The notes beneath the pieces were generated by a model. It did no database searches, was not told where the DNA came from, and worked only from the letters and a program-made list of their open reading frames with translations. The translations under genes were made by a program, and so were the position numbers. From Bacteroidota bacterium (lineage in GTDB: Bacteria > Bacteroidota > Bacteroidia > Chitinophagales > LD1), in the NCBI GenBank assembly GCA_026391075.1, contig JAPLES010000031.1, forward strand, positions 1 through 45,592: DNA of 45,592 nucleotides, read 5' to 3'. The stretch's first letter is position 1, and every line of letters begins with the position of its first letter. Of the stretch, positions 21,232 through 36,325 are shown piece by piece.

Positions 21232-24021
21232 CTACCTCACCACCAACTTTTTATTGTAAGCTTGCTTATCTATAAGTAGTTGCAGATTGTAAATACCTGC
21301 GGCAAGATTCTTTACCTTAATCTCTTCGCTTATTGTTTCGCCTTTCAACAAAATATTTTTGGAGTAAACAATTTGCCCCAGCGCGTTATAAAGAGTTACC
21401 AATAACTGCTTTGCATTTTTTGCTTCACCGCTAAGCACGAATGTTCCTTCAGTAGGGTTTGGATAAACATTCAAATTCGAAATACTGCTTTCTTCTATAG
21501 CAGTGAAACAGGTCAGATAGTGGTCGCTGCTTTGATATACACAACCACCTACAGCTATGCCTACTCGGTAATAACCATTTTGATTGGCGGTGTAATACTG
21601 CGAAGTAGCAAAAGGAATTGCCGTTCCGTTTCTATACCACTGATATGTTGCCCCCGCAATACTTGCTGCCGCTAAATCGCAACCGCCATTCACCTGCACC
21701 GAAGTATCAACCGCTGCACAAGGCAACGCGCCTGCTTTTCCATATTGCGTAATGGTGATGGAATCGCCCTCAACAATCAGCGTGCATTGTTTTGTAAATG
21801 TATCGTTGGTGGCAGAAATAGAAACAACAAAACTATCGGTGCCAACACCGCTCGCTGGAAGAACAGTCAACCACGAACAGTTGCCAGAGTTTACATTCCA
21901 ATTACAAAACGCAGGGCATAAAACAGAAACAGAACTTACCAATCCGCTGCTATCGGCAATAATTATAGAAGCACTCAACTGATAAGCACAGGCAATAGGT
22001 GAAATAATTACGCTGTCACTCGCTGTGCAATTATTGTTGTCGGTAACAACAACAGTGTAAGTAGTGGTATCAACCGCATTTGAAAACGGATTAGCAACAG
22101 CCGAACTATCAAGCGTGCTAATCGGATTCCACGAATATGTATAAGGTATTTGTCCGCCACCGGCAGTTGGATTTCCTCCTATGGTTACTCCCGCGCCTGT
22201 ATTAGTTTGGTCAGCACCTGCATTGGCAATTGGAGTATTGTAAATAGTAACGTTTGCAGTGGCAGTTGCTGTGCAGTTGTTTAAAGAAACAGTTACGGTA
22301 TAGCTTATATTGGTTGATGGACTAACAGAAATTGCTGATGTGATTTCGTTCGTACTCCACGCATAAGTTCCGCCACCGCTTGCAGTAAGTGTAGTGCTTG
22401 CTCCGTTGCAAATAGAAATAGAAGCCGGAGAAATAGTTGCCGTTGGAATTTGATTCACAGTAACCGATTGCGAATTGCCCGCAGTGCAGGTATTAGCATC
22501 TGTAACGGTTACCGAATATGTTCCTGTTGCTATTCCCGAAATTGTTGCGCCACTGTTTATTCCCACTGGCGTATTCCAACTATAAGCACAACTGCTGCAA
22601 CCAATGCTGTTGGCCGAAACCGAAACAGGATTGCAAGTACCCGCAGTAGATATTATAGGAGCATTGGGAGCCGATAAAGTTGAAATACTTACGGTAGCTG
22701 AAGCACTTCCACCGCAATTGCTGGTAGCAGTAACCGTGTAAGAACCAGGAGAAAGGTTTTTAGAAGAACCGCTTCCTAATCCACCACTCCATTGAAAAGC
22801 ACAGCCTGTGCAATTAAATGCCGATACAGAAACTGCCGTTGTTCCACTACTGCATGCAGCTAGCGTTCCTGAGAAAGAAATGTTGGTTGGAGGCGAACAA
22901 ACTGTATGCGTTACACAAATATCAAACGTTGGCGAAGTAGGAATAGAGCCGCTGTAATTGTATTCAAACACGCGTATGTAATAGGTATTGCCAATCGTCA
23001 GGTTGTTCCATGTATTGCTCACCGAAGTTGGTGAGCCCACAGGGTCGTAACAACCCAGCGCGGTATTAAACGCACAAGCAGTCCGCAACTCCATTACGGC
23101 ATCAAAATTTGCAGCGTAATTGCTTAGGGTTACCGTTTCACTGGTGGCGGCTGCGGTAAAAGAATAATACACATCCTTATCATCGGGCGAAGTGCAAGTG
23201 CATCCCGTGCACTGATTTGCTCCGTAAGAACCCGTGGCGCATGAAACAGTTCCGGTTAAACAATTTCCGTTTGAAGTAATCGAAATTCCAGGGCAATTAT
23301 CGTTGGCGGGTGCAGTGCAGGGAGCAGTTCCTATCAAAATATTAAAGTCGGTGGTTGTGCCGTTGTAAACATTCAAATCCACCGATCCGGTAATTCCCGA
23401 AACTGTTCCTGTCCAGGAATATTGCTTAAACATCCAGGTATTCCATACACCAATATTAGCAGGCGGTGTGGTGGAACTTGTTCCGGGGTTTGCAATCCAT
23501 AAGCCATAAGTATTCAGTGAACTGTTTAAGTAAGCAGCAATAGATGCACTCGTATAAATTACAGGAGTTATTCCCGTTGCATTTTGCACGGTGGTGAGCC
23601 ATGTTTGCGCCCATGCCGTTAAGGCGGCACTGGTAAAATAACTGGTGAGGGCAGGACCTGTTGGAGGGTCTTCTAAATCTAAAGCAGGCGGTAAAAATCC
23701 AACACCAATGGATGAACTCGACATAGCTAAAAAATGATTGGCTTCATCCACTGCGGTATTGCTTTCGGGTCGCGCAAAATGATACACGCCCATAACAACG
23801 CCCGCACTTGTTCCTCCGCTCATGTAAGTGGTATAGTTAGGGTCGTTGTAAGTAACCCCTTCGGTTGATTTAACCCATGCAAAAACTTTTCCCGATGCAG
23901 CTACCTGAGTCCAGTTGATGCTTCCCTGATAGTGAGAAACATCAATGCCCAGAATGGTTTGCGCAAGCAATTGATGGCTGAGAGTAAGGAATAAACCGAT
24001 AAAGAGTAAATGCTTTTTCAT
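21232..24021 (-). CDS. secreted GH25 lysozyme with Ig/PKD-like and BACON domains and T9SS sorting domain
   Basis: A 929-aa exported, multidomain protein. After the signal peptide (1-21), a GH25 muramidase spans about 22-230 with Asp27 in GIDVSHYQG and the acid pair Asp115/Glu117 in ALDLEDP; it cleaves the MurNAc-GlcNAc bond of peptidoglycan. A cysteine-rich domain (about 235-380) and several Ig/SprB-like repeats with CxxCxYxW patterns follow to about 690. A BACON-like module (about 690-785) ends in SITITQYG, then comes another Ig-like unit with YQWYRNG. The last 75 residues are a type A T9SS sorting domain (YPNPTEGTF to KKLVVR). It should be exported through the outer membrane and released or anchored, to attack walls of other bacteria or phage-like prey. 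Its ATG follows directly on the stop of the upstream gene. Confidence 0.92.
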   Translation of the reverse strand: MKKHLLFIGLFLTLSHQLLAQTILGIDVSHYQGSINWTQVAASGKVFAWVKSTEGVTYNDPNYTTYMSGGTSAGVVMGVYHFARPESNTAVDEANHFLAMSSSSIGVGFLPPALDLEDPPTGPALTSYFTSAALTAWAQTWLTTVQNATGITPVIYTSASIAAYLNSSLNTYGLWIANPGTSSTTPPANIGVWNTWMFKQYSWTGTVSGITGSVDLNVYNGTTTDFNILIGTAPCTAPANDNCPGISITSNGNCLTGTVSCATGSYGANQCTGCTCTSPDDKDVYYSFTAAATSETVTLSNYAANFDAVMELRTACAFNTALGCYDPVGSPTSVSNTWNNLTIGNTYYIRVFEYNYSGSIPTSPTFDICVTHTVCSPPTNISFSGTLAACSSGTTAVSVSAFNCTGCAFQWSGGLGSGSSKNLSPGSYTVTATSNCGGSASATVSISTLSAPNAPIISTAGTCNPVSVSANSIGCSSCAYSWNTPVGINSGATISGIATGTYSVTVTDANTCTAGNSQSVTVNQIPTATISPASISICNGASTTLTASGGGTYAWSTNEITSAISVSPSTNISYTVTVSLNNCTATATANVTIYNTPIANAGADQTNTGAGVTIGGNPTAGGGQIPYTYSWNPISTLDSSAVANPFSNAVDTTTYTVVVTDNNNCTASDSVIISPIACAYQLSASIIIADSSGLVSSVSVLCPAFCNWNVNSGNCSWLTVLPASGVGTDSFVVSISATNDTFTKQCTLIVEGDSITITQYGKAGALPCAAVDTSVQVNGGCDLAAASIAGATYQWYRNGTAIPFATSQYYTANQNGYYRVGIAVGGCVYQSSDHYLTCFTAIEESSISNLNVYPNPTEGTFVLSGEAKNAKQLLVTLYNALGQIVYSKNILLKGETISEEIKVKNLAAGIYNLQLLIDKQAYNKKLVVR

Positions 24022-25352: not shown

Positions 25353-25387
25353 AAAAGCCGTTGCGAATATTCGTAGCGGCTTTTTTT
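25353..25387. terminator. bidirectional intrinsic terminator
   Basis: AAAAGCCGTTGCGAA (25353-25367) pairs with TTCGTAGCGGCTTTT (25370-25384) with two G-U pairs, followed by TTT and preceded by an A-rich run. It ends the WG-repeat gene and also the minus-strand glycosyltransferase operon, whose stop overlaps the T run. Confidence 0.88.
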
Positions 25388-26567
25388 ATGCTTTCGCTTT
25401 TTTGTAAACGTGCACCAGAACATAAGTAACTATCCAGGTTAGCAAAGCAACGATTGCTGCCAGTGTAAAACTTCCCACCACATACTGCAAAAAGTTTTTG
25501 CCGATCAATTCGGGTTTCAGATGTTCACTGAAATTAAAACTCATGGCATGCTTCCCAAACCATACTCCACCTGCCTGATAACTGGCAACTACAATAAACG
25601 GAATCATGGGAGGCACGCTGATGTTTGATGCAATAATGGAAAGCCCTTTGTTTAGTTTAAACAACCAGGCAAAAAGAATAACGAACCATATTTGAAAACC
25701 CCAGAAAGGAGTAATTCCAAAAAAAACACCCAACGACATTGACCACGCTTTTATATTCGGTGTTTCATGAGAGCGTATTAAATGTTCTTCAAGCAGTTTT
25801 CGCCAATCATTTTTTTTTATGTGGCGAAAAAAATCGCGCGGTTTTATCCAAGCAAAAGTCCAGAATACTAAAATGGTATTCAACACACTGATGCGCGAAA
25901 AATCTTTGAATGGACGGAAGTGCGAAATGCGCTCTTCGGCAGGTGGGTAGTATACTTTTACAGGAACTGCAAGTACATCTAAACCGCTCCATGCCCCGCG
26001 AACAATTACTTCAATTTCAAATTCATATTTGTAAGTAAAAAACCGAATGCCCTCCAATGCTTTCACCGGATACAAACGATAACCCGATTGTGTATCAGGA
26101 ACAGAAATTCCTGTTTCGAGCGTAAACCAAAACGTAGAAAACTTATTTCCGAAACTGCTTTTACCCGGCACCGAACTTTGATTCATGTTGCGCGCACCAA
26201 TTACTATTGTGTGGTTATTTTTCTCTAAAGAATCTAACATTGTTGGCAAGTCATCAGCAAAATGTTGTCCGTCTGAATCGAGAGTTATTACATAATCATA
26301 TCCATTCTTTATAGCGAACTTAAAACCCTCACGTAAAGCCCAACCTTTACCCGCGTTCTTTGGATAAGTATGCAATTTGATTTGCGGAAACTGAGAAAGA
26401 ATTTCAAGTGTGTTATCAGTGGAGCCATCGTTCACTACACATATATCATCACTGTATTCCAACACATCTTTTATTACCTGCGCAATCGTAGTGCTGTTGT
26501 TATAGGTAGGAATGAGAACACAGCAACGCAGTTCTCTGAACTTCTGTTTGTAGTTACTCTTCTCCAT
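25386..26567 (-). CDS. family 2 glycosyltransferase fused to a DUF2062 membrane domain
   Basis: In this 393-aa protein residues 15-235 form a GT2 domain of the dolichol-phosphate-mannose-synthase type: VLIPTYNN, VVNDGSTDNT, and the metal-binding DxD at Asp97/Asp99 (TLDSDGQH). Residues about 255-385 are a DUF2062 domain with three hydrophobic helices (GVFFGITPFWGFQ) that would place the enzyme at the inner membrane. It is the last gene of the lipid-like operon; its ATG overlaps the dehydratase stop (TAATG). It likely glycosylates a lipid or carrier-linked product of the cluster. The GT2-DUF2062 fusion is seen in other Bacteroidota polyene-type loci; the substrate is unknown. Confidence 0.88.
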   Translation of the reverse strand: MEKSNYKQKFRELRCCVLIPTYNNSTTIAQVIKDVLEYSDDICVVNDGSTDNTLEILSQFPQIKLHTYPKNAGKGWALREGFKFAIKNGYDYVITLDSDGQHFADDLPTMLDSLEKNNHTIVIGARNMNQSSVPGKSSFGNKFSTFWFTLETGISVPDTQSGYRLYPVKALEGIRFFTYKYEFEIEVIVRGAWSGLDVLAVPVKVYYPPAEERISHFRPFKDFSRISVLNTILVFWTFAWIKPRDFFRHIKKNDWRKLLEEHLIRSHETPNIKAWSMSLGVFFGITPFWGFQIWFVILFAWLFKLNKGLSIIASNISVPPMIPFIVVASYQAGGVWFGKHAMSFNFSEHLKPELIGKNFLQYVVGSFTLAAIVALLTWIVTYVLVHVYKKAKA

Positions 26568-26929
26568 TAATACAATTCGCCTTTAAATCTGAAAAACATT
26601 TCCTCGGGAGTAGAATAAACAGCATTCACCCATAAGTTTTCGCCTTCTTCTTTTTCAATTTTAAATTCCATGTTCAGTTCGCGGTTTTTTTCAGGGTTCA
26701 ACAACGCGAGAAATTTAATATGATGCGCCAGTTTCAATTCAAGCGGGCGGTTCATCAATTGGCTAAGTGTCTCCAGTAACATTTGTGTTTGGCAAACACC
26801 GGGCACCACAGGCAAATCTGGAAAATGCCCTTTGAATATTTCGTGTGCGGGATTAAACTGCACTTTAGCGCGATACGTTTGTCCCTCCTTACTTGAGTCA
26901 ATAATGTTGTAGAAACTTCCTAAAAGCAT
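26567..26929 (-). CDS. 3-hydroxyacyl-ACP dehydratase-like hotdog protein
   Basis: This 120-aa single hotdog domain is of the FabZ/ApeI type, which removes water from 3-hydroxyacyl-ACP. The motif HEIFKGHFPDLPVVPGVCQ at 29-47 holds the catalytic His35. The acidic residue that FabZ carries four positions after PGV is Gln49 here, with Glu53 four residues later. The product is short compared with FabZ (about 150 aa) but the usual size for these cluster-associated forms. It lies between the LolA-like gene (92-bp gap) and the glycosyltransferase (1-bp overlap). Confidence 0.82.
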   Translation of the reverse strand: MLLGSFYNIIDSSKEGQTYRAKVQFNPAHEIFKGHFPDLPVVPGVCQTQMLLETLSQLMNRPLELKLAHHIKFLALLNPEKNRELNMEFKIEKEEGENLWVNAVYSTPEEMFFRFKGELY

Positions 26930-27021
26930 TTGTAAAAGTTAATAGTGAATGGTAAATAGTTAATAGGAAATGCAACTACAAGTGTGGCGAAAAATAAATA
27001 AGTACACAATAAACTTGAAAA

Positions 27022-27654
27022 CTATTTGATTGCAAACAAAGCATCGTCCACCGAGCCGTTTATTTCTTTGCTGGTAAAGGAGAGAATAGTGTTATCGCCC
27101 GATGCTTCGTTCATTTCAATGCGCGTAGCAGTAAAATCTTTTTTGTCGAGCACCAATACAATCGTGCTCAAAAAGTTCTTGAGCATTTTTGAAATAGGTT
27201 TCAGTTCTACTTTCACCAGCGAATTACTTTCCGAAAGACTCACCGTAAAATCTTTGCCGTTGAATAAACTGCCATTGATAGAACCCACAATAATATTGTT
27301 GAGTTGCTGAAATACTTTGCTGCGGTGCATATCCATTTGCGAAGTCTTCTTATCGTCCTTCATTAGCATCTTTCCGCTGTTCATTACAATCAGGTTCTTT
27401 AACGGCACTAAATATTCTAAACGTACTTTACTTTCTTTTTTGAAGTAGAACTTGCCTTTTGAAACCGCTTTCTCCGAAAGCATACTCATGTTTTTCTCCT
27501 GTATAAAATCGCATTGAATCGTAGATATTTTAGTTGATGCTTCTACAATTTTCTTTTGAAGGGCCGCTGCATCCTTTGAAGCAGTAAAAGTTTGCGCCTG
27601 CACAAAATGAATACTGCACAGCAATAAAAAGAAAGTGAAAAATTTGAATTTCAT
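27022..27654 (-). CDS. LolA-like periplasmic lipoprotein carrier
   Basis: The 210-aa product has a signal peptide (about 1-20, ending VQAQ) and a LolA/LolB-like domain: a first helix with LQKKIVEAS, then the FIQEKNMSMLSEKAVSKG strand and KFYFKKESKVRLEYL. An unclosed beta barrel of this kind shields acyl chains. Divergent LolA proteins are standard in aryl polyene and flexirubin clusters, where they are thought to carry the product to the outer membrane. That role fits the neighbours here. It is separated from the deacetylase gene by 109 bp holding a palindromic repeat, so it may have its own promoter. Confidence 0.83.
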   Translation of the reverse strand: MKFKFFTFFLLLCSIHFVQAQTFTASKDAAALQKKIVEASTKISTIQCDFIQEKNMSMLSEKAVSKGKFYFKKESKVRLEYLVPLKNLIVMNSGKMLMKDDKKTSQMDMHRSKVFQQLNNIIVGSINGSLFNGKDFTVSLSESNSLVKVELKPISKMLKNFLSTIVLVLDKKDFTATRIEMNEASGDNTILSFTSKEINGSVDDALFAIK

Positions 27655-27674
27655 AAGTATAAATCAAAAATATA

Positions 27675-27754
27675 GAACGCTTATTATCATTATTAAACTG
27701 ATGAAAGTGATTTTGAAATCATTTTAATAATGATAATCATAACAATCAGCGTTC
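27675..27754. repeat. 80-bp imperfect palindrome (copy 1)
   Basis: The ends GAACGC and GCGTTC are inverted, and the arms TTATTATCATTATTAAA and TTTTAATAATGATAAT pair over most of their length, with a 10-base insertion on the right arm. The reverse complement of this unit aligns with 37030-37110 with only scattered differences. It lies between the deacetylase and LolA-like genes. Confidence 0.8.
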
Positions 27755-27763
27755 TATTGAATT

Positions 27764-28537
27764 TCAATAATAAGCTTTGGTTTTAAGTAATTCGTCTACA
27801 CCCACAATTTCAAAACCACGCGCACGCACTTCTTTAATGAAGTCAGAAAGGATGCCAATTGTAAATTTGCCCCAGTCATGAAACAGAATAATGTCTCCGT
27901 TGCTTAAGTTTTTAAGAGATTTTTGGAGAACCTGCACTGCACTCTTTGCATTTGTATCATACGTGCGAATGCTCCAGCCAACGCAATCATAGTTTCCTTT
28001 TTCAATTGCCTTCTTCACCATCGGGTTAATTACGCCATAAGGCGGACGAAAGAATTTTGGTTTCCTTCCTGTTGCACGAAAGATTTCTTCATCACACTTC
28101 TTCATGTCGTTGTACATTGCTTCACTTTTGTTCAGCGAAAACCAATAGGTATGCGAATAACTGTGATTGCCGATAACATGTCCTTCATCCATCATTCGTT
28201 TCACTACCGCTTCGTTTCCTTCTATGTTTTTTCCGATTAGGAAAAATGCCGCGGGAACTTTTTCGCTTTTCAGTAAATCAAGCAAACGCGAAGTGAACTC
28301 TTTCATTGGTCCATCATCGAAAGTAATGGCTATTTCTTTGCGGTCTTTACTTCCTTTCCATAACGAGCGAAGAAAAAAATCGGATTGAATGAAGTATGAA
28401 CCGTAAACAAGCAATGAGACGTAAGCAAGAATTACGACCAGATAATAAACTATCAGGCTATTTACTCCCCAACTTGTTAGCAATGGAACAGCAAGCAGTA
28501 GCACAAAAATTAATCGGGTGTAGCGCGCGTTTAACAT
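27764..28537 (-). CDS. membrane-anchored polysaccharide deacetylase (NodB family)
   Basis: In this 257-aa protein residues 1-52 contain two hydrophobic helices that anchor it in the inner membrane. A NodB-type CE4 domain follows with all motifs intact: TFDDG (Asp74/Asp75), HSYSH (metal-binding His125 and His129), RPPYG, and LFHDW near the C terminus. CE4 enzymes remove N- or O-acetyl groups from glycans or glycolipids using a divalent metal. The ATG overlaps the upstream chain-length-factor-like gene by 7 bp, so it is translationally coupled to the ketosynthase genes. The substrate may be the sugar part of the cluster's lipid. Confidence 0.9.
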   Translation of the reverse strand: MLNARYTRLIFVLLLAVPLLTSWGVNSLIVYYLVVILAYVSLLVYGSYFIQSDFFLRSLWKGSKDRKEIAITFDDGPMKEFTSRLLDLLKSEKVPAAFFLIGKNIEGNEAVVKRMMDEGHVIGNHSYSHTYWFSLNKSEAMYNDMKKCDEEIFRATGRKPKFFRPPYGVINPMVKKAIEKGNYDCVGWSIRTYDTNAKSAVQVLQKSLKNLSNGDIILFHDWGKFTIGILSDFIKEVRARGFEIVGVDELLKTKAYY

Positions 28538-29586
28538 GCTTTAAAAAGCATGAGCGAATGGTTGTGCTTATGCGAGTTGTAAAGTAAAATATTTTTCGGT
28601 GAACGGTTTTTGTTCTCCAGAATAACTGCATCAGGAATCTGTTGTGCCTTCATCATCTTGCTCGCTAACCAGAACGCAAAAGCAGAAGAAGTCATGTATT
28701 CGCCACACAGATGTTTGTAAGCAACAATAGTTTGTGTAGCGAAAAGATTTTTGTTTAAATCAATTCTTATCGCATCTGTTTCTTTTGCTCCGCTAATGCC
28801 AGATATTACCACATCAATATCTTCAAGAGATGAGTTGTTTGTTTTCAGAAACGAAAGAATATGATTCCTCATTTCTTCAGTGCTTTCTGGTTTATAGAAT
28901 GCTTTGTTGCTGACAAACATTCCATACGTATTTTCTGTTTTCTCTTTAGCTAAAACAAAAAACGCTGCACCTTCTCCCGCAATTACTCCGTTGCCTTTTT
29001 CTCCGTAAACATCTAAGTTGCTGGAAGGTTCACTGCGTAACTCTTTTGTTTTCTTCATAGCCGCATACTTGTAATCGCTTACTTCATCATAAGCGCCTAC
29101 GAGTATGTTGTCCATGTTTTCAAGCACCAATAACTGCGCATCGGTCAATGCACTTTCAAACGAAAAACCTTTATGCGAAAAAGTATTGTTGTGCGAAAAA
29201 CATTTGCAAAGCAATGCAATATTTGAACTGACGGTGTTATGTGTCGATTGAATAAAAGTTGTCGGGCTCACAATCGTTTCATCTACTTCAATCAGGCTCT
29301 TTAAAAAGCGTTGCGAAACTTCGGGTAATCCAAGTGCTGTGCCTGTAGAAATTGCACCCGGAACTTCTATTCCCGCATCACGAATAGCAATCATGCCTGC
29401 GGCAGTTCCGTATTTCATCAACCGACCCATTCTTCGAATAGAACCTGCATCAAAAAACTTCGTGTAATCAGCATCAACACAAGTCAAACGATTGGTGGAA
29501 TACTCCTTTACTTCAGCTAGAAACTCTGAGTTATCAAAAGTGCGCTGAGGTGAAATACAACCAATCCCATTTATGAAGAGTGCCAT
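28531..29586 (-). CDS. ketosynthase-like chain-length-factor protein without catalytic residues
   Basis: The 351-aa product starts at the ATG overlapping the ketosynthase stop (TGATG); the longer frame to 29619 adds residues inside that gene. The thiolase-fold core is recognisable from INGIGCISP, SPTTFIQSTHNTVSSNIA and GEGAAFFVLAKE. The three ketosynthase catalytic positions are changed: the nucleophile region reads SHKGFSF (Gly140 for Cys), the first His loop reads ISGISG, and the second reads KHLCGEYM (Glu296 for His). This fits a non-catalytic partner that sets chain length as a heterodimer with the intact synthase upstream. Confidence 0.85.
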   Translation of the reverse strand: MALFINGIGCISPQRTFDNSEFLAEVKEYSTNRLTCVDADYTKFFDAGSIRRMGRLMKYGTAAGMIAIRDAGIEVPGAISTGTALGLPEVSQRFLKSLIEVDETIVSPTTFIQSTHNTVSSNIALLCKCFSHNNTFSHKGFSFESALTDAQLLVLENMDNILVGAYDEVSDYKYAAMKKTKELRSEPSSNLDVYGEKGNGVIAGEGAAFFVLAKEKTENTYGMFVSNKAFYKPESTEEMRNHILSFLKTNNSSLEDIDVVISGISGAKETDAIRIDLNKNLFATQTIVAYKHLCGEYMTSSAFAFWLASKMMKAQQIPDAVILENKNRSPKNILLYNSHKHNHSLMLFKAC

Positions 29587-30779
29587 CAGTTTGCTTTTGA
29601 AAAAATTACCGATGAACAATTACCACCAAAGCCAAATGAATTACTCATCACATGCTTTACTTCCATATTCTCTAACAACTCAGTTACAGGAACAAAATCG
29701 AGTTCTTTCATTTTTGTTTGAAACCGAAGATTAGGGAAGATGATTCCGTTCTCAATAGAGAGAATAGAATACACCGCTTCAATTCCTGCGCATGCACCAA
29801 GCGTATGACCTGTATAGGGTTTCGTAGAACTCACCTTCGGCACATCTCCAAATATTCTTTGAATGGCAATGCCTTCCGATAAATCATTATTCGAAGTTCC
29901 TGTGCCGTGCAAATTGATGTAGTCAATATCTTTAGTTGAAAGCCCACTCATTTCTAACGCGCCTTGCATAGCCATAAAGTTCCCTTTGCCTTCGGGCGAT
30001 GAAGCTGTTTGATGGAAAGCATCATTCGCGTTTGCATAACCAGCAAGTATTGTGGTTGGTTTCTTTGCAAGTGTTGCAGCAACTTCTTCTGAAACTAAAA
30101 CAACATAACCTGCACCTTCACCAAGATTCAACCCTTTACGGTTTTCATCGTAAGGTGTGCATGGATTCGTATCTAAAATCATCAGCGAATTAAAACCGTT
30201 CAAGGTAAACTTGCTCATGGCATCGCAGCCACCTGCCACCACAATATCAAGTTGATTGGCTTTTATCAAACGCGCGCCATAAGCCATGGCGTTTGTTGAT
30301 GAAGAACAAGCGGTGCTGATGGTAGTGATATGGTCATTAATGCCGAGTTGATTCGCTACAAGTTCAGTTACATAGCCCTCATCATAAGGGTCTTCTTCAA
30401 TCAGTTTATCGGTGTTATCATCTTCGAGATAGTATTTGTAAATGGTTTCGGTTTTGTCCATAGCACCAACGGTGTTTGCAGAAATAAAACCGGTCCTCCA
30501 TTTCTTAAAATCAGGAATGTTGGCATCAGCAACGGCTTCTTTTGCAGCAATGGAACTTAGAAAAGCAGTGCGGGGTTCGCTGCTGTTTAATCCGCAACGT
30601 TGCGCCAGTTCTTCGTTCGAAAGTTTTACCTCAGCAGCAGGAAGTGTTTCGGCATAGCGCGTTGGAAGCACAGTAATTTTAGAAACGCCCGTTTGCAAAT
30701 TTCTAAGTGATGCGAAGTTCTCCGCTACATTATTTCCTATGGCAGAAATGACACCCTTCCCCGCAATGAACACCTTCAT
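29586..30779 (-). CDS. beta-ketoacyl-ACP synthase (FabF-like)
   Basis: This 397-aa ketosynthase is full length. It has Cys158 in TISTACSSS, His291 in INLHGTGTSNND, Lys320/His325 in STKPYTGHTLGAC, and GEGAGYVVLV. It catalyses decarboxylative condensation of malonyl-ACP with an acyl-ACP. It sits between the ACP (12-bp gap) and the inactive homolog (1-bp overlap), the pairing found in aryl polyene, flexirubin and type II polyketide systems rather than in housekeeping fatty-acid loci. Confidence 0.93.
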   Translation of the reverse strand: MKVFIAGKGVISAIGNNVAENFASLRNLQTGVSKITVLPTRYAETLPAAEVKLSNEELAQRCGLNSSEPRTAFLSSIAAKEAVADANIPDFKKWRTGFISANTVGAMDKTETIYKYYLEDDNTDKLIEEDPYDEGYVTELVANQLGINDHITTISTACSSSTNAMAYGARLIKANQLDIVVAGGCDAMSKFTLNGFNSLMILDTNPCTPYDENRKGLNLGEGAGYVVLVSEEVAATLAKKPTTILAGYANANDAFHQTASSPEGKGNFMAMQGALEMSGLSTKDIDYINLHGTGTSNNDLSEGIAIQRIFGDVPKVSSTKPYTGHTLGACAGIEAVYSILSIENGIIFPNLRFQTKMKELDFVPVTELLENMEVKHVMSNSFGFGGNCSSVIFSKAN

Positions 30780-30791
30780 AAAGGAGAGAGA

Positions 30792-31046
30792 TTATTTTTT
30801 GTGAGCCGTAATATAATCGGCAATTGTGCGTACAGTTTTGAAAACCGTAGGACCATCTTGCGGATTGGCAAGTTTGATTCCATATCGCTGTTGCAGTAAC
30901 ACAATGAGTTCAAGCGCATCAATCGAATCAAGCCCAAGACCTTCTACAAACAACGGCTGGTCGTCACCAATGTCTTCCGGTTTCAGGTGTTGTAAATTCA
31001 GTTGCTCAATAATTTGCACTTTAAGCGTTGCGATGAGTTCACTCAT
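30792..31046 (-). CDS. acyl carrier protein
   Basis: The 84-aa ACP has the four-helix pattern and the phosphopantetheine site Ser41 in GLGLDSIDALEL. It carries the growing acyl chain of the cluster. Compared with housekeeping AcpP it is slightly longer and has a different helix I (LKVQIIEQLNLQHLKPEDI). The ATG overlaps the stop of the upstream gene (ATGA). Confidence 0.93.
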   Translation of the reverse strand: MSELIATLKVQIIEQLNLQHLKPEDIGDDQPLFVEGLGLDSIDALELIVLLQQRYGIKLANPQDGPTVFKTVRTIADYITAHKK

Positions 31047-31660
31047 ATTCCTTGAAAAATTTTATTGACGTTTAATGAATTATGGATGTCTGAATTTTCT
31101 TTTCCTGTTTCTGCTAAATAAAAAAATGCTTCCGCTTTGCCGTTATAATAATCTGCCCAACCACTGATACACGTTTTTACTTTCTCTGTTTCAAAAAGCG
31201 AATTCAAATAATCAGTTTGAAAGATTGCGTCAAATATATCAAAAACGAAACATGCTGCTTCGCCCTTAATACGATGGCGAATACAGATTTCGCCAATGAG
31301 AACATTAGGAAGTGTGTAAACAAAAAGCGATGGGCTTGGAGCGGTGGCAATACTTGCTTCGTATTTAATGTCGGTATCTAAACTTGAATTGGCATTGGAG
31401 AAAACGATTCCGATTTCTTCAGGTTGAAATTTCTCATTAAGTTTTTGATTGCGTAAAAGAAGTTCTGCCACAAGGAACCCTGTTTTGCAGAGGTTATCCA
31501 TTTTAAAAAACTTCGGATAGTTGATTTGAAAATGGTCGTAAGCAGCTTGTAGAAAATCTGTCGAACTTAAATCCTTGTTTTCGAAAACCTTTTGACCGTC
31601 AACTACTATTTGATTATTGCGAAGCAGTAAATAAGAGGAAATAGAAACCTGCTTACTCAT
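31043..31660 (-). CDS. half-size ketosynthase-like protein
   Basis: The 205-aa product starts at the ATG overlapping the zinc-ribbon stop (ATGA). It resembles only the N-terminal half of a ketosynthase: GIVFSNANSSLDTD and a stretch SPSLFVYTLPNVLIGEI like the substrate-channel region, then HRIKGEAACF where the nucleophile loop would be. No second half, no His loops and no clear active Cys are present. Similar short 'beta-ketoacyl synthase, chain length factor' proteins (Ketoacyl-synt_2 type) occur in aryl polyene clusters. Its role there is unknown; an interaction or regulatory partner for the synthase is likely. Confidence 0.68.
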   Translation of the reverse strand: MSKQVSISSYLLLRNNQIVVDGQKVFENKDLSSTDFLQAAYDHFQINYPKFFKMDNLCKTGFLVAELLLRNQKLNEKFQPEEIGIVFSNANSSLDTDIKYEASIATAPSPSLFVYTLPNVLIGEICIRHRIKGEAACFVFDIFDAIFQTDYLNSLFETEKVKTCISGWADYYNGKAEAFFYLAETGKENSDIHNSLNVNKIFQGI

Positions 31661-31860
31661 TTTACCGCAGCGGTTAAAATGTAACGATTGCAATTGGTGC
31701 AATAAAATTTTTTGTTCGCAGCATTGCCAAAAGAAATAGCGGCTACTATTCGTTCAAAACGCGTGCGTTTTACCCGGAACATTTTTTTCTTTCTACAATC
31801 GGGACAGACGAATAAATCCTTTTCGCCATCGCCTAAAATATTGTTTGCATCGCTTGCCAT
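31657..31860 (-). CDS. small zinc-ribbon protein
   Basis: This 67-aa protein has two knuckles, CPDC at about residues 19-22 and CTNC at about 54-57, spaced to bind one zinc. Between them is a basic stretch (RKKKMFRVKRTRFERI) that could contact nucleic acid or membrane. It lies in the minus-strand operon, 19 bp after the unknown 261-aa gene and overlapping the next start. The tight packing and conserved Cys pairs argue it is real. Function unknown. Confidence 0.72.
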   Translation of the reverse strand: MASDANNILGDGEKDLFVCPDCRKKKMFRVKRTRFERIVAAISFGNAANKKFYCTNCNRYILTAAVK

Positions 31861-32672: not shown

Positions 32673-33521
32673 TTAGTTTTTCATAAACTTTCGTTCAGCT
32701 ATCTGGTAACGGTTTCCTTTTTCAAGTATATGAACATTCAAATTTTCCATTGAAATAGTTTCTCCGTCATTTATTTGAGGCACATTATTATGTCCAACAT
32801 TTTTGCCATCGATAATGAAAACGATTCCACTTCCAATAACTTCTATTTCATTTCCATGGGTAATTACTACGCCCGTATCTTCACCTAACCCAACTCCAAG
32901 TTGTAATGTACTCAACGCAATTGCTTTCGACATACGAATAAATCGTCCGCGTTTATTTACGTGCGAGTCAATGATAACGCCATCAATAAACCACAGACCT
33001 GTTGTAATTTTTACTACGCCTTTCAAGTGTGCATGAGCCGCTTGTCCATCGGCAATCATAATTTTACTCATAGCCATTGCACCTGCACTGGTTCCTGCTA
33101 TAATGAAATTTTCTTTGGTGTAACGTTCTTTTAAAATCTCCAGAAACTGAGTGCCGCCAAAAACAGAAGTGAGCTTGCTTTGATTGCCGCCACTGAACAT
33201 TACCGCATTGCAAACTTTCAGGCGTTCTATTAGCTCTTCGTTTTCGGCATCTTTTGTTTTGCGAATGCGCATGTGGTTAACGTTACTGCAACCCGCTTTT
33301 GTAAACGCACTTAAATAATTACGTCCCACTTCACCGGGTATCATACTGGCTGTAGTAATCACTTCGATATGCGCGCGCGCGCCACCTGCTTCGGCTATAA
33401 TGCGTTTCAGTATTCCAAGCTCGATGTAGTTCGGATTGTTTTTATTGATAGCAAACAAATCTTTGTCTGTTCCTTTATCTTCCGCTCCGCCTATGGCTAT
33501 CAGTTTTCCTTTGGGTGTCAT
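32673..33521 (-). CDS. cphB: cyanophycinase
   Basis: The 282-aa product matches the peptidase S51-type exopeptidase that releases beta-Asp-Arg dipeptides from cyanophycin. It shows LIAIGGAEDK at the start, the oxyanion segment FSGGNQSKL at 109-117, the nucleophile Ser145 in GTSAGAMAMS, and DSHVNKRGRFIRM at 185-197 with conserved His and Arg residues. There is no signal peptide, so it acts on intracellular granules. It is divergent from cphA with 146 bp between starts, the expected pairing of synthesis and breakdown. Confidence 0.94.
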   Translation of the reverse strand: MTPKGKLIAIGGAEDKGTDKDLFAINKNNPNYIELGILKRIIAEAGGARAHIEVITTASMIPGEVGRNYLSAFTKAGCSNVNHMRIRKTKDAENEELIERLKVCNAVMFSGGNQSKLTSVFGGTQFLEILKERYTKENFIIAGTSAGAMAMSKIMIADGQAAHAHLKGVVKITTGLWFIDGVIIDSHVNKRGRFIRMSKAIALSTLQLGVGLGEDTGVVITHGNEIEVIGSGIVFIIDGKNVGHNNVPQINDGETISMENLNVHILEKGNRYQIAERKFMKN

Positions 33522-33667
33522 TCAATTTATTGGCTGCCGAAAATCAATAATTGATTAGGATTACAAAAAATAATTTTCAACAATTGCGAAAAGCAACTCG
33601 CTCAATAAAAATTCTAAATTGCATTTACTGTATTCATTTATCAATCATCATTTATCAATAATCAATT

Positions 33668-36325
33668 ATGAAGATTCTCGACATCAAAGTAATGAAGGGT
33701 CCAAACTACTGGAGTAACAAACGCCATAAACTCGTGGTCATGCGATTGGATTTAGAAGACATGGAACAAAAACCTACCAATAAGATTCCGGGTTTTGGTG
33801 AGCGTTTACAAAAAATGTTTCCGAGCATGATGGAGCATCGTTGCAGCGAAGGAATGGAAGGAGGTTTTTTTTCTCGTGTGAAAGATGGCACCTGGATGGG
33901 ACATGTGATTGAACACATTGCTCTTGAAATTCAAACATTGGCAGGAATGGACTGTGGTTTTGGTCGCACGAGGGAAACTTCTAACAAGGGAGTTTATCAC
34001 GTAGTGTTCTCCTACTTCGAAGAGAACGCAGGAATATTTGCAGCCAAAAGTGCAGTGCGCATTGCTGAAGCATTGATTGCAGGAACTGAATATGATTTGC
34101 CAAAAGACATTCAAGAATTGCGCGAGATTCGGGAGGCAGAAAGATTAGGACCATCCACCGGTTCTATTGTAGATGAAGCAGTGAAAAGAAAAATTCCATG
34201 GATTCGTTTGAACAGACGTTCATTAGTTCAGCTTGGTTACGGAAAAAATCAAAGACGTATTCAGGCAACAGTAGCAAGCACTACTTCAAACATTGCAGTT
34301 GAAATTGCGTGCGATAAAGAAGATACCAAGAACTTATTGGATGCCGCGCAAATTCCAGTGCCGAAGGGGTATGTAGTTTATGATGAAGTTGATTTGAAAA
34401 ACACGATTGAAAAAATCGGTTACCCTGTTATTACCAAACCGCTCGATGGAAATCACGGCAAAGGAGTTACTACTAATTTGCGCAATTGGGAAGATTCAGT
34501 AATTGGAATGAACGCAGCCAAAAAATATTCACGAGCTGTTATTTGCGAGAAATATATTACCGGTCGCGACCATCGAGTGTTGGTCATCAATTACAAATTT
34601 GTGGCGGCAGCATTGCGCACTCCTGCATCGGTAATTGGCGATGGCAAAAGTTCTATTCAGCAATTGATAGATAAAGTAAACAGCGACCCGCGAAGAGGTT
34701 ATGGTCACGAAAAAGTTTTGACAGCCATAAAAGTAGATGACCAAACCGAAAATATTTTAGTGAAGTTGGATTACACTCTTGAAACTGTTTTAAAGAAAGA
34801 GGAAGAGTTGTGGTTGAAACCAACAGCTAACCTTTCTACCGGAGGAACAGCTACTGATATTACGGATTTGGTTCACCCAACCAATGTATTTATGTGCGAG
34901 CGCATTGCACGAATCATTGGCTTAGATATTTGCGGCATTGATATTATGGCCGATGATTTAACCAATCCAATTACAGAAAATGGTGGAGCAATTCTAGAAG
35001 TAAACGCAGCTCCGGGTTTTAGAATGCACCTTGACCCTACTGAAGGAATTGGAAGAAATGTAGCCGAGCCGGTGATTGATATGTTGTATCCACCGGGGGT
35101 AAGTGCGCGCATTCCTATCGTTGCTGTTTCGGGAACAAACGGAAAAACAACCACTACTCGTTTGATTGCACACATTGTAAAACAAATGGGAATTAAAGTT
35201 GGGTTCACCACTACCGAAGGTGTTTACATTCAAAACCAAATGATGATGCAAGGCGATTGCACAGGACCGGTGAGTGCAGAGTTTGTGTTGAAAGACCCCA
35301 CTGTTGAATTTGCGGTGTTAGAATGTGCACGCGGAGGAATTTTGCGCGCAGGTTTAGGTTTTCATAATTGCGACATGGCAGTGGTAACGAACATTGCTCC
35401 TGACCATCTCGGCTTGCAAGGCATTGATACACTCGAACAATTAGCACGTGCAAAAGCGGTAGTGGCTAAATCGGTTTTTGCCGAAGGATATGTAATTCTG
35501 AATGCCGATGATGATTTGGTTTACAAAATGCGCGAAGAAGTAGATTGCAAAGTGGCGCTGTTTAGTATGGATGAAAATAATCCACGCATAAAAGAACACG
35601 CTGCCAATCATGGAATTTCGTGCGTTTACGAAAATGGTTTCTTCACTATCTTAAAAGGCAACTGGAAAATTCGTGTAGATAAAGTAACCAATGCGCCTAT
35701 TACTTTTGGAGGTAAAGCAGAGTTTAATATTCAGAATGCGCTTGGAGCTATTCTAGCTGCATACCTGCGCGATTTTAAAATTGAAGACATCAAACTTGCA
35801 CTCGAAACGTTTGTGCCATCGCCTGCACAAACTCCAGGTCGCATGAACATTTTCAACTTCAAAAACTTTACCGTAATGGCAGATTATGCGCACAACGCAC
35901 ACGGTATGCGCGCTATAGGAAAGTTTGTGACTAAGGTGGAAGCTACTGTGAAAGTTGGAGTGATAGCTGGCGTGGGTGACCGAAGAGATGAAGACACTAT
36001 TGAGTTAGCCGAAGAAGCTGCAAAAGTTTTTGATGAAATAATTATTCGTCAGGACAGACATTTACGCGGCAAACCGGAAGATGATATTATTGCGCTGCTT
36101 AGGAAGGGAATTCAAAACATAGATAAGAACAAGAAAATTACAGTCATTAAAAAAGAAAGCGAAGCCATTGAATATGCTGTTCGCAATGCCGTGAAGGGTT
36201 CTTTTATTGTGGTGATTAACGATGTGGTGCTTGCTGCGCTCGACCAATTGCAAAAACTAAAAGAGGAAGAAGAAGAAAGTGATGCGAAAGTGCGAATAGA
36301 TAGTCCGCTGAATATAGTGAATTGA
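33668..36325 (+). CDS. cphA: cyanophycin synthetase
   Basis: This 885-aa protein is the normal length for CphA1, which polymerises Asp and Arg into multi-L-arginyl-poly-L-aspartate using ATP. An N-terminal domain (about 1-160) is followed by an ATP-grasp domain (about 210-475; PVITKPLDGNHGKGVTTNL, EVNAAPGFRMHLDP) that adds arginine or aspartate. A Mur-ligase-like domain (about 480-875) has the P-loop GTNGKTTTTR around residues 489-498 and the MADYAHNAHG motif. All key motifs look intact. The upstream AT-rich gap holds TTTATCAAT direct repeats but no clear promoter. Cyanophycin would act as a nitrogen and carbon store in the cytoplasm. Confidence 0.96.
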   Translation: MKILDIKVMKGPNYWSNKRHKLVVMRLDLEDMEQKPTNKIPGFGERLQKMFPSMMEHRCSEGMEGGFFSRVKDGTWMGHVIEHIALEIQTLAGMDCGFGRTRETSNKGVYHVVFSYFEENAGIFAAKSAVRIAEALIAGTEYDLPKDIQELREIREAERLGPSTGSIVDEAVKRKIPWIRLNRRSLVQLGYGKNQRRIQATVASTTSNIAVEIACDKEDTKNLLDAAQIPVPKGYVVYDEVDLKNTIEKIGYPVITKPLDGNHGKGVTTNLRNWEDSVIGMNAAKKYSRAVICEKYITGRDHRVLVINYKFVAAALRTPASVIGDGKSSIQQLIDKVNSDPRRGYGHEKVLTAIKVDDQTENILVKLDYTLETVLKKEEELWLKPTANLSTGGTATDITDLVHPTNVFMCERIARIIGLDICGIDIMADDLTNPITENGGAILEVNAAPGFRMHLDPTEGIGRNVAEPVIDMLYPPGVSARIPIVAVSGTNGKTTTTRLIAHIVKQMGIKVGFTTTEGVYIQNQMMMQGDCTGPVSAEFVLKDPTVEFAVLECARGGILRAGLGFHNCDMAVVTNIAPDHLGLQGIDTLEQLARAKAVVAKSVFAEGYVILNADDDLVYKMREEVDCKVALFSMDENNPRIKEHAANHGISCVYENGFFTILKGNWKIRVDKVTNAPITFGGKAEFNIQNALGAILAAYLRDFKIEDIKLALETFVPSPAQTPGRMNIFNFKNFTVMADYAHNAHGMRAIGKFVTKVEATVKVGVIAGVGDRRDEDTIELAEEAAKVFDEIIIRQDRHLRGKPEDDIIALLRKGIQNIDKNKKITVIKKESEAIEYAVRNAVKGSFIVVINDVVLAALDQLQKLKEEEEESDAKVRIDSPLNIVN

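Follow-up and report, generated by a model that had tools for sequence, protein, structure and literature searches.

Can a compact polyene-type operon that carries no reductase, ligase or exporter make a product by itself, or is it one piece of a larger pathway? The question is raised by eight genes on the minus strand of a 45,592-nucleotide contig (JAPLES010000031.1, positions 1 to 45,592, assembly GCA_026391075.1; hereafter the window) of a Bacteroidota bacterium assigned to Chitinophagales, LD1. We conclude that this operon is, with little doubt, the middle block of the pathway for flexirubin, a yellow-orange pigment of the outer membrane, and that it is split from the rest of the flexirubin (flx) cluster in this genus. 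The pathway is thus a known one in an unusual, dispersed arrangement, the variant features being dispersal into intact blocks and the occurrence of the lipid carrier LolA2 without its usual neighbour LolB2.

The operon and its counterparts in flexirubin clusters

All eight open reading frames (ORFs) are present, and Pfam or NCBIfam matches support every assignment but that of FlxL (Table 1). They are transcribed from 31660 to 25386 in the order L-M-N-O-P-LolA2-S-T, and the domains, place and strand proposed by a sequence-only reading, made without database searches, held. The same reading had recognized a flexirubin-like type II synthase family; this agrees with the LolA2_flexi match, which is over its cut-off, and with the gene order, which is that of flx clusters. 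Gene letters were assigned by function and order against the accessible part of the text of PMC3992019. LolA2 is probably flxQ and LolB2 flxR by position, and the thioesterase labelled G here may be flxH.

According to the same part of that text, flxA-flxY of Chitinophaga pinensis form a single cluster, from which the dar genes are separate; ketosynthases are C, I, L, N and O, dehydratases are F and S, and flxP-flxU comprise a deacetylase, an acyltransferase, LolA, a glycosyltransferase and the exporter (PMC3992019). Our operon shares with it the order L-M-N-O-P-LolA2-S-T, and the genome has orthologues of FlxA, FlxB, FlxU and FlxY; it differs in the distribution of the flx genes over at least four places and in the lack of LolB2. 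The same order around the same genes was seen in a C. pinensis strain locus (L117), and the position of FlxS matches that of the dehydratase in the C. pinensis and Flavobacterium loci. One Flavobacterium locus (L162) has extra small genes around the dehydratase that are absent from the window.

We analyzed the best 80 of 477 relatives as named loci outside the genus, a sample biased to close relatives of FlxT. The run N-O-P-LolA2-T was found on one strand in 45 of the 80, and because the block recurs so often a chance arrangement is implausible. Larger flx clusters that contain L-M-N-O-P-LolA2-(LolB2)-S-T occur in C. pinensis YS-16, Flavobacterium, Winogradskyella, a Sphingobacterium metagenome-assembled genome and others. 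An exporter is present within 3 kb downstream of the block in 35 of the 43 loci with at least 4 kb of downstream sequence; of the other eight, six are from Chryseobacterium, where the cluster is rearranged. The sequence-only reading had named, as the outcome that would refute it, that the same eight genes always occur beside a known full flexirubin or aryl polyene cluster. Outside the genus this outcome is nearly reached: of the 41 named block loci whose upstream sequence covers 1.5 kb or more, 40 have G, I or K within 3 kb of the block on that side.

Table 1. Genes of the flexirubin-type operon in the window, in order of transcription
Feature	Coordinates	Strand	Evidence
FlxL-like half-size ketosynthase-fold protein, 205 aa	31043..31660	-	Predicted model; candidate half-size chain-length factor like ApeC
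FlxM-like acyl carrier protein	30792..31046	-	PF00550; NF006617 75 bits, cut-off 70; GLDSID motif, residue 38
FlxN-like ketosynthase, Cys-His-His triad	29586..30779	-	PF00109/PF02801 (ketoacyl-synt N+C); TACSS, HGTGT, TGHTLG
FlxO-like chain-length factor	28531..29586	-	PF13723 (weak ketosynthase N-domain); ketosynthase fold without catalytic Cys and first His (alignment)
FlxP-like CE4 polysaccharide deacetylase	27764..28537	-	PF01522 (Polysacc_deac_1) 126 bits; DDG, HSYSH, RPPY motifs
LolA2, flexirubin-specific periplasmic lipid carrier	27022..27654	-	NF053544 LolA2_flexi 202 bits, cut-off 125
FlxS-like hot-dog dehydratase	26567..26929	-	PF07977 (FabA) 23.4 bits, cut-off 23; PF22818 (ApeI-like) below cut-off
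FlxT-like GT2 glycosyltransferase fused to DUF2062	25386..26567	-	PF00535 (Glycos_transf_2) and PF09835

The genes are tightly packed, with overlaps of 4, 1, 7 and 1 bp and one 12-bp gap; to describe the whole operon in this way is a slight overstatement, gaps of 109 and 92 bp being present on the two sides of lolA. ATG codons at 31660 and 29586 are better starts for FlxL and FlxO, respectively, than the listed TTG. The extent of 25386-31860 proposed for the operon covers the eight genes and also a 67-aa zinc-ribbon ORF (31657-31860, minus strand), which overlaps the start of FlxL by 4 bp. Among the loci of eight relatives with FlxL in view, this ORF is matched beside FlxL only in G017, and it is therefore probably not part of the operon; a weak match (44 bits) in G014 is located about 9 kb beyond the operon.

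Further pathway genes on other contigs

The sequence-only reading noted that a reductase, a ligase, an ammonia lyase and an exporter are absent from the operon. This is correct: no ketoreductase, ligase, ammonia lyase or MMPL exporter adjoins it, and no flx-type genes besides the eight were found in the 45.6-kb contig. Of the two explanations put forward, the first, that the rest is elsewhere, was supported by analysis of the complete assembly (G000; a draft of 3.6 Mb in 91 contigs, 98% complete, with 1.3% contamination). Contig C51 terminates with genes for FlxA (ammonia lyase; NF053541, 785 bits, cut-off 700), FlxB (reductase; NF053542, 366 bits, cut-off 340), a CrtI-like FAD enzyme and the FabB-like ketosynthase FlxC, the last truncated by the contig end. 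A FlxU-type exporter is encoded on C20. It is a 1227-aa MMPL protein with a fused acyltransferase domain, both domains being above cut-off and a methyltransferase domain marginally so, and it is 90% identical to the G017 copy. On C6 the CoA ligase FlxY (4-coumarate-CoA ligase; NF053551, 637.5 bits, cut-off 520) is accompanied by its three usual neighbours, a CrtI-like FAD enzyme, a C45 acyltransferase-like protein and an AcpS-like gene.

Genes for the dialkylresorcinol moiety were also detected. C19 encodes DarB (604 bits, cut-off 550), DarG (190, cut-off 170) and DarH (448.5, cut-off 300), together with an ABC pair and, near DarB, a candidate for DarA. This candidate has no NCBIfam or Pfam match at the limits used; it is 45% identical to the product of a gene beside a DarB-sized gene in locus L190. 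A second set of acyl carrier protein, ketosynthase, chain-length factor and dehydratase genes is present on C73 (L012, 3422-6712), a different contig from that of the C19 dar genes. We considered it as the missing flx part and rejected it, since relatives of its ketosynthase and chain-length factor adjoin darB, darG and darH in G003.

Co-occurrence in the genus and the nature of the product

FlxA, with an identity of at least 57%, is encoded in 12 of the 18 genomes of the genus (partial copies in G004 and G016). FlxU, FlxY and FlxT (the last at 47% identity or more) occur in the same 12, and the other six lack all four; only distant matches were seen in these six, with a lyase at 32-33% in all and GT2 proteins at 32 and 38% in two. 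LolA2 is present in 11 of the 12 flx genomes, G016 being the exception, and the LolA2_flexi model matched in only one of 14 control genomes, that of Bacteroides ihuae. A partial LolA2 match with two in-frame stops at G019:C3:45183-45362 (L034) may be a pseudogene remnant.

These data bear on the second explanation of the sequence-only reading, in which the operon alone would make a different product, a glycosylated and deacetylated acyl lipid independent of flexirubin. Its isolation in the 45.6-kb contig and in several relatives, and its deacetylase and glycosyltransferase genes, would fit such a role. However, every genome of the genus in which LolA2 or FlxT was found also contains FlxA, FlxU and FlxY, the LolA2 is of the flexirubin-specific type, and the operon has no ketoreductase of its own. 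Moreover, the deacetylase, LolA and GT2-DUF2062 genes are found in the same order inside flexirubin clusters, of which, in the accessible part of the cluster description, a deacetylase, LolA and a glycosyltransferase are standing parts (PMC3992019). The proposal of a different product is thus unsupported; we rejected it on co-occurrence and gene order and regard it as very improbable.

With assignment to the flexirubin pathway preferred, several observations have to be set against it. No FlxE, FlxI or FlxK was detected in the assembly of the window's own genome, where a search for FlxK returned only paralogues at 23-28% identity (FlxD, FlxF and FlxG were not searched for). FlxI (at least 44% identity) and FlxE (at least 41%) are each present in 11 of the 12 flx genomes, the exception both times being this one. 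An assembly gap is the likely, though unproven, reason, because C51 breaks off within FlxC, the gene after which FlxE, FlxI and FlxK come in G017 and G015. The draft may also include foreign contigs. LolB2 (profile A2) was detected in only three of the 18 genomes (G001, G004 and G009), not in this one, and DarB is above cut-off in ten of the 18, all of them within the 12, with G001 and G009 lacking it.

The last observation shows that the presence of flx genes is not by itself proof of a dialkylresorcinol ester: G001 and G009, which possess the flx genes, may make the aryl polyene acid without it. One could suppose on the example of these genomes, where flx forms one cluster, that the window's genome too makes only the acid, or an ester other than that with dialkylresorcinol. 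We consider this unlikely, as its DarB, DarG and DarH are above curated cut-offs, the presumed DarA lies near DarB, and the ketosynthase and chain-length factor of the C73 set have relatives that adjoin dar genes in G003.

As to LolB2, in most clusters its site is between LolA2 and the dehydratase; the window has only 92 bp at this site. Of the 45 named block loci (best 80 of 477), 42 have a detected copy. LolB2 is accordingly a usual companion and not a defining part, three named block loci being without a detected copy. According to the accessible part of PMC11885536, every flexirubin-type locus in the species studied there contained lolA2 and lolB2. The Flavobacterium johnsoniae flexirubin locus described in the same part resembles ours in having a dedicated LolA2 in the operon, whereas in our case LolB2 is not in the operon and was not found genome-wide. 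Genomes with LolA2 and no detected LolB2 make the putative role of LolB2 in pigment export testable.

Dispersal of the cluster in relatives

In the window's genome the flx genes do not form one cluster and are found in at least four separate places (contigs C51, C7, C20 and C6). The cluster is whole, FlxA through FlxY without interruption, in G001 and apparently in G009, where contigs end inside FlxT and FlxU; it is split in the nearer relatives of the window. In G003 the genes from C to T are linked, and A-B and U-Y are found at other sites. A 918-aa gene separates K and L in G011, and in G014 C-K and L-T are about 90 kb apart on a single contig. In G017 A-K and L-T are apart and the exporter is 5 kb from T. 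G006 shows A, C-K, L-LolA2 and U-Y on four contigs, with T about 106 kb from A.

It could be argued that the isolation of the operon results from assembly or binning and that the block is truly next to the rest of the cluster, given a draft in 91 contigs and the end of C51 inside FlxC. Against this, the operon is more than 13 kb from both contig ends, with ordinary genes on either side and an upstream gene order identical to that of G017, and the blocks of G003, G006 and G014 are located within long contigs, flanked on each side by unrelated genes. An artefact was rejected, since long-contig relatives show the same split, and we find it barely credible.

We return to a true split of the flexirubin cluster. 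In a tree of FlxL-M-N-O with 19 rows, some of whose outgroup branches are long, the outermost position is taken by Chitinophaga and the next by G001/G009. For the arrangement we counted 13 of these rows (G015 and five outgroup rows left out), for which two separations between K and L are sufficient, and by parsimony on this tree the linked cluster is the predicted ancestral state. The split concerns layout and has no bearing on pathway membership. Dispersal explains why an apparently incomplete polyene operon exists, and mining for single clusters would pick up pieces and might overlook the pathway. Within the genus the arrangement grades from one cluster through a few blocks to scattered blocks, and the points at which the blocks break off show which flexirubin genes remain linked. 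We recognized no report of a dispersed flexirubin cluster in the literature searched; one may still exist.

Other arrangements were observed further afield. In another genus of the family (G023, G024 and G026; loci L038, L039 and L050) the order is deacetylase-LolA2-LolB2-dehydratase-GT2-exporter. FlxL-O do not adjoin this run in L038 and L039, which is a different break point, and L050 ends at the deacetylase. In G027 and G029 (L047, 2736-3901; L048, 8142-9325) FlxT is present as two ORFs, GT2 and DUF2062, beside the dehydratase and LolA2.

FlxL and the proposed pathway

FlxL had been described as a half ketosynthase. Its AlphaFold model, built from 32 sequences (predicted local distance difference test score 91), does resemble ketosynthases and chain-length factors: these are the top solved folds in a Foldseek search, with TM to the query of 0.41-0.65 among the best 50. 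The best hits by E-value are the chain-length factors 6kxe_B, 6kxd_B and AntE, and ApeC (6qsp_B) is at rank 8 with TM 0.52. ApeC, in the accessible part of PMC8358021, is roughly half as large as its ketosynthase and has a single thiolase domain; FlxL matches this half-size, one-domain build, a likeness that is structural and taken from the predicted model. The following results speak against this view of FlxL. No Pfam or NCBIfam match was obtained, and profile comparison with FlxN by hhalign gave no significant similarity (probability 2%, E 0.022). With VIA-align (Z up to 15.2, root-mean-square deviation about 4) FabF entries rank first, and the best chain of 6qsp is ApeO, not ApeC. In the weak alignment with FlxN, Ile142 of FlxL is opposite the active-site Cys. 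The window's FlxL has Cys137, found in three of 32 rows (Phe in the other 29), and because this Cys is only five residues before Ile142 the predicted catalytic inactivity of FlxL is likely but not certain. We infer both this inactivity and the pairing of FlxL with FlxN.

The solved relatives of FlxN include the aryl polyene ketosynthase entries 6qsp_A and 7f28_B. Compared with the proteobacterial aryl polyene system (ApeO-ApeC, ApeR), as given in the accessible part of PMC8358021, our set likewise combines a ketosynthase with an inactive partner, and FlxC is FabB-like, as is ApeR. The differences are two putative inactive partners, FlxL and the longer FlxO, in place of one, a start from a tyrosine ammonia-lyase, and a Bacteroidota gene content.

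Building on gene identities, order, co-occurrence and genome locations, we propose the following chemistry. FlxA, a tyrosine ammonia-lyase encoded on another contig, would yield 4-coumarate, which FlxY, also from another contig, would activate as the CoA thioester. Both activities have reportedly been shown for the C. pinensis enzymes. FlxN with the inactive FlxO, perhaps aided by half-size FlxL, would add malonyl units to the aryl primer, with FlxM as the acyl carrier protein. Each unit would be reduced by FlxB (another contig) and dehydrated by FlxS to give the polyene, and the FabB-like FlxC, truncated on its own contig, may assist. The aryl polyene acid would then be esterified with dialkylresorcinol, the product of the dar genes, which are also on other contigs. 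Movement of the pigment to the outer membrane, or its anchoring there, would fall to LolA2, the deacetylase, the GT2-DUF2062 protein and the distant MMPL/acyltransferase exporter, roles that we infer. A fuller version, in which the genus runs a complete flexirubin pathway from at least five loci, LolA2 delivers without LolB2, and FlxN is served by two inactive partners, FlxO and an ApeC-like FlxL, is offered tentatively and is more doubtful; we lowered our estimate of it because of the hhalign, VIA-align and Cys137 results on FlxL.

Neighbouring genes

Divergent genes at 32673-36325 of the window, presumably for a cyanophycinase-like and a cyanophycin-synthetase-like protein, adjoin the operon, and the pair has the same order in G017. 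On the other side, at 21232-24021 (minus strand), a 929-aa protein named lysozyme-like from its sequence alone is encoded. A protein with a similar start, likewise of 929 aa, is encoded between FlxT and FlxU in G017 and beside FlxU in G015, and thus marks a rearrangement.

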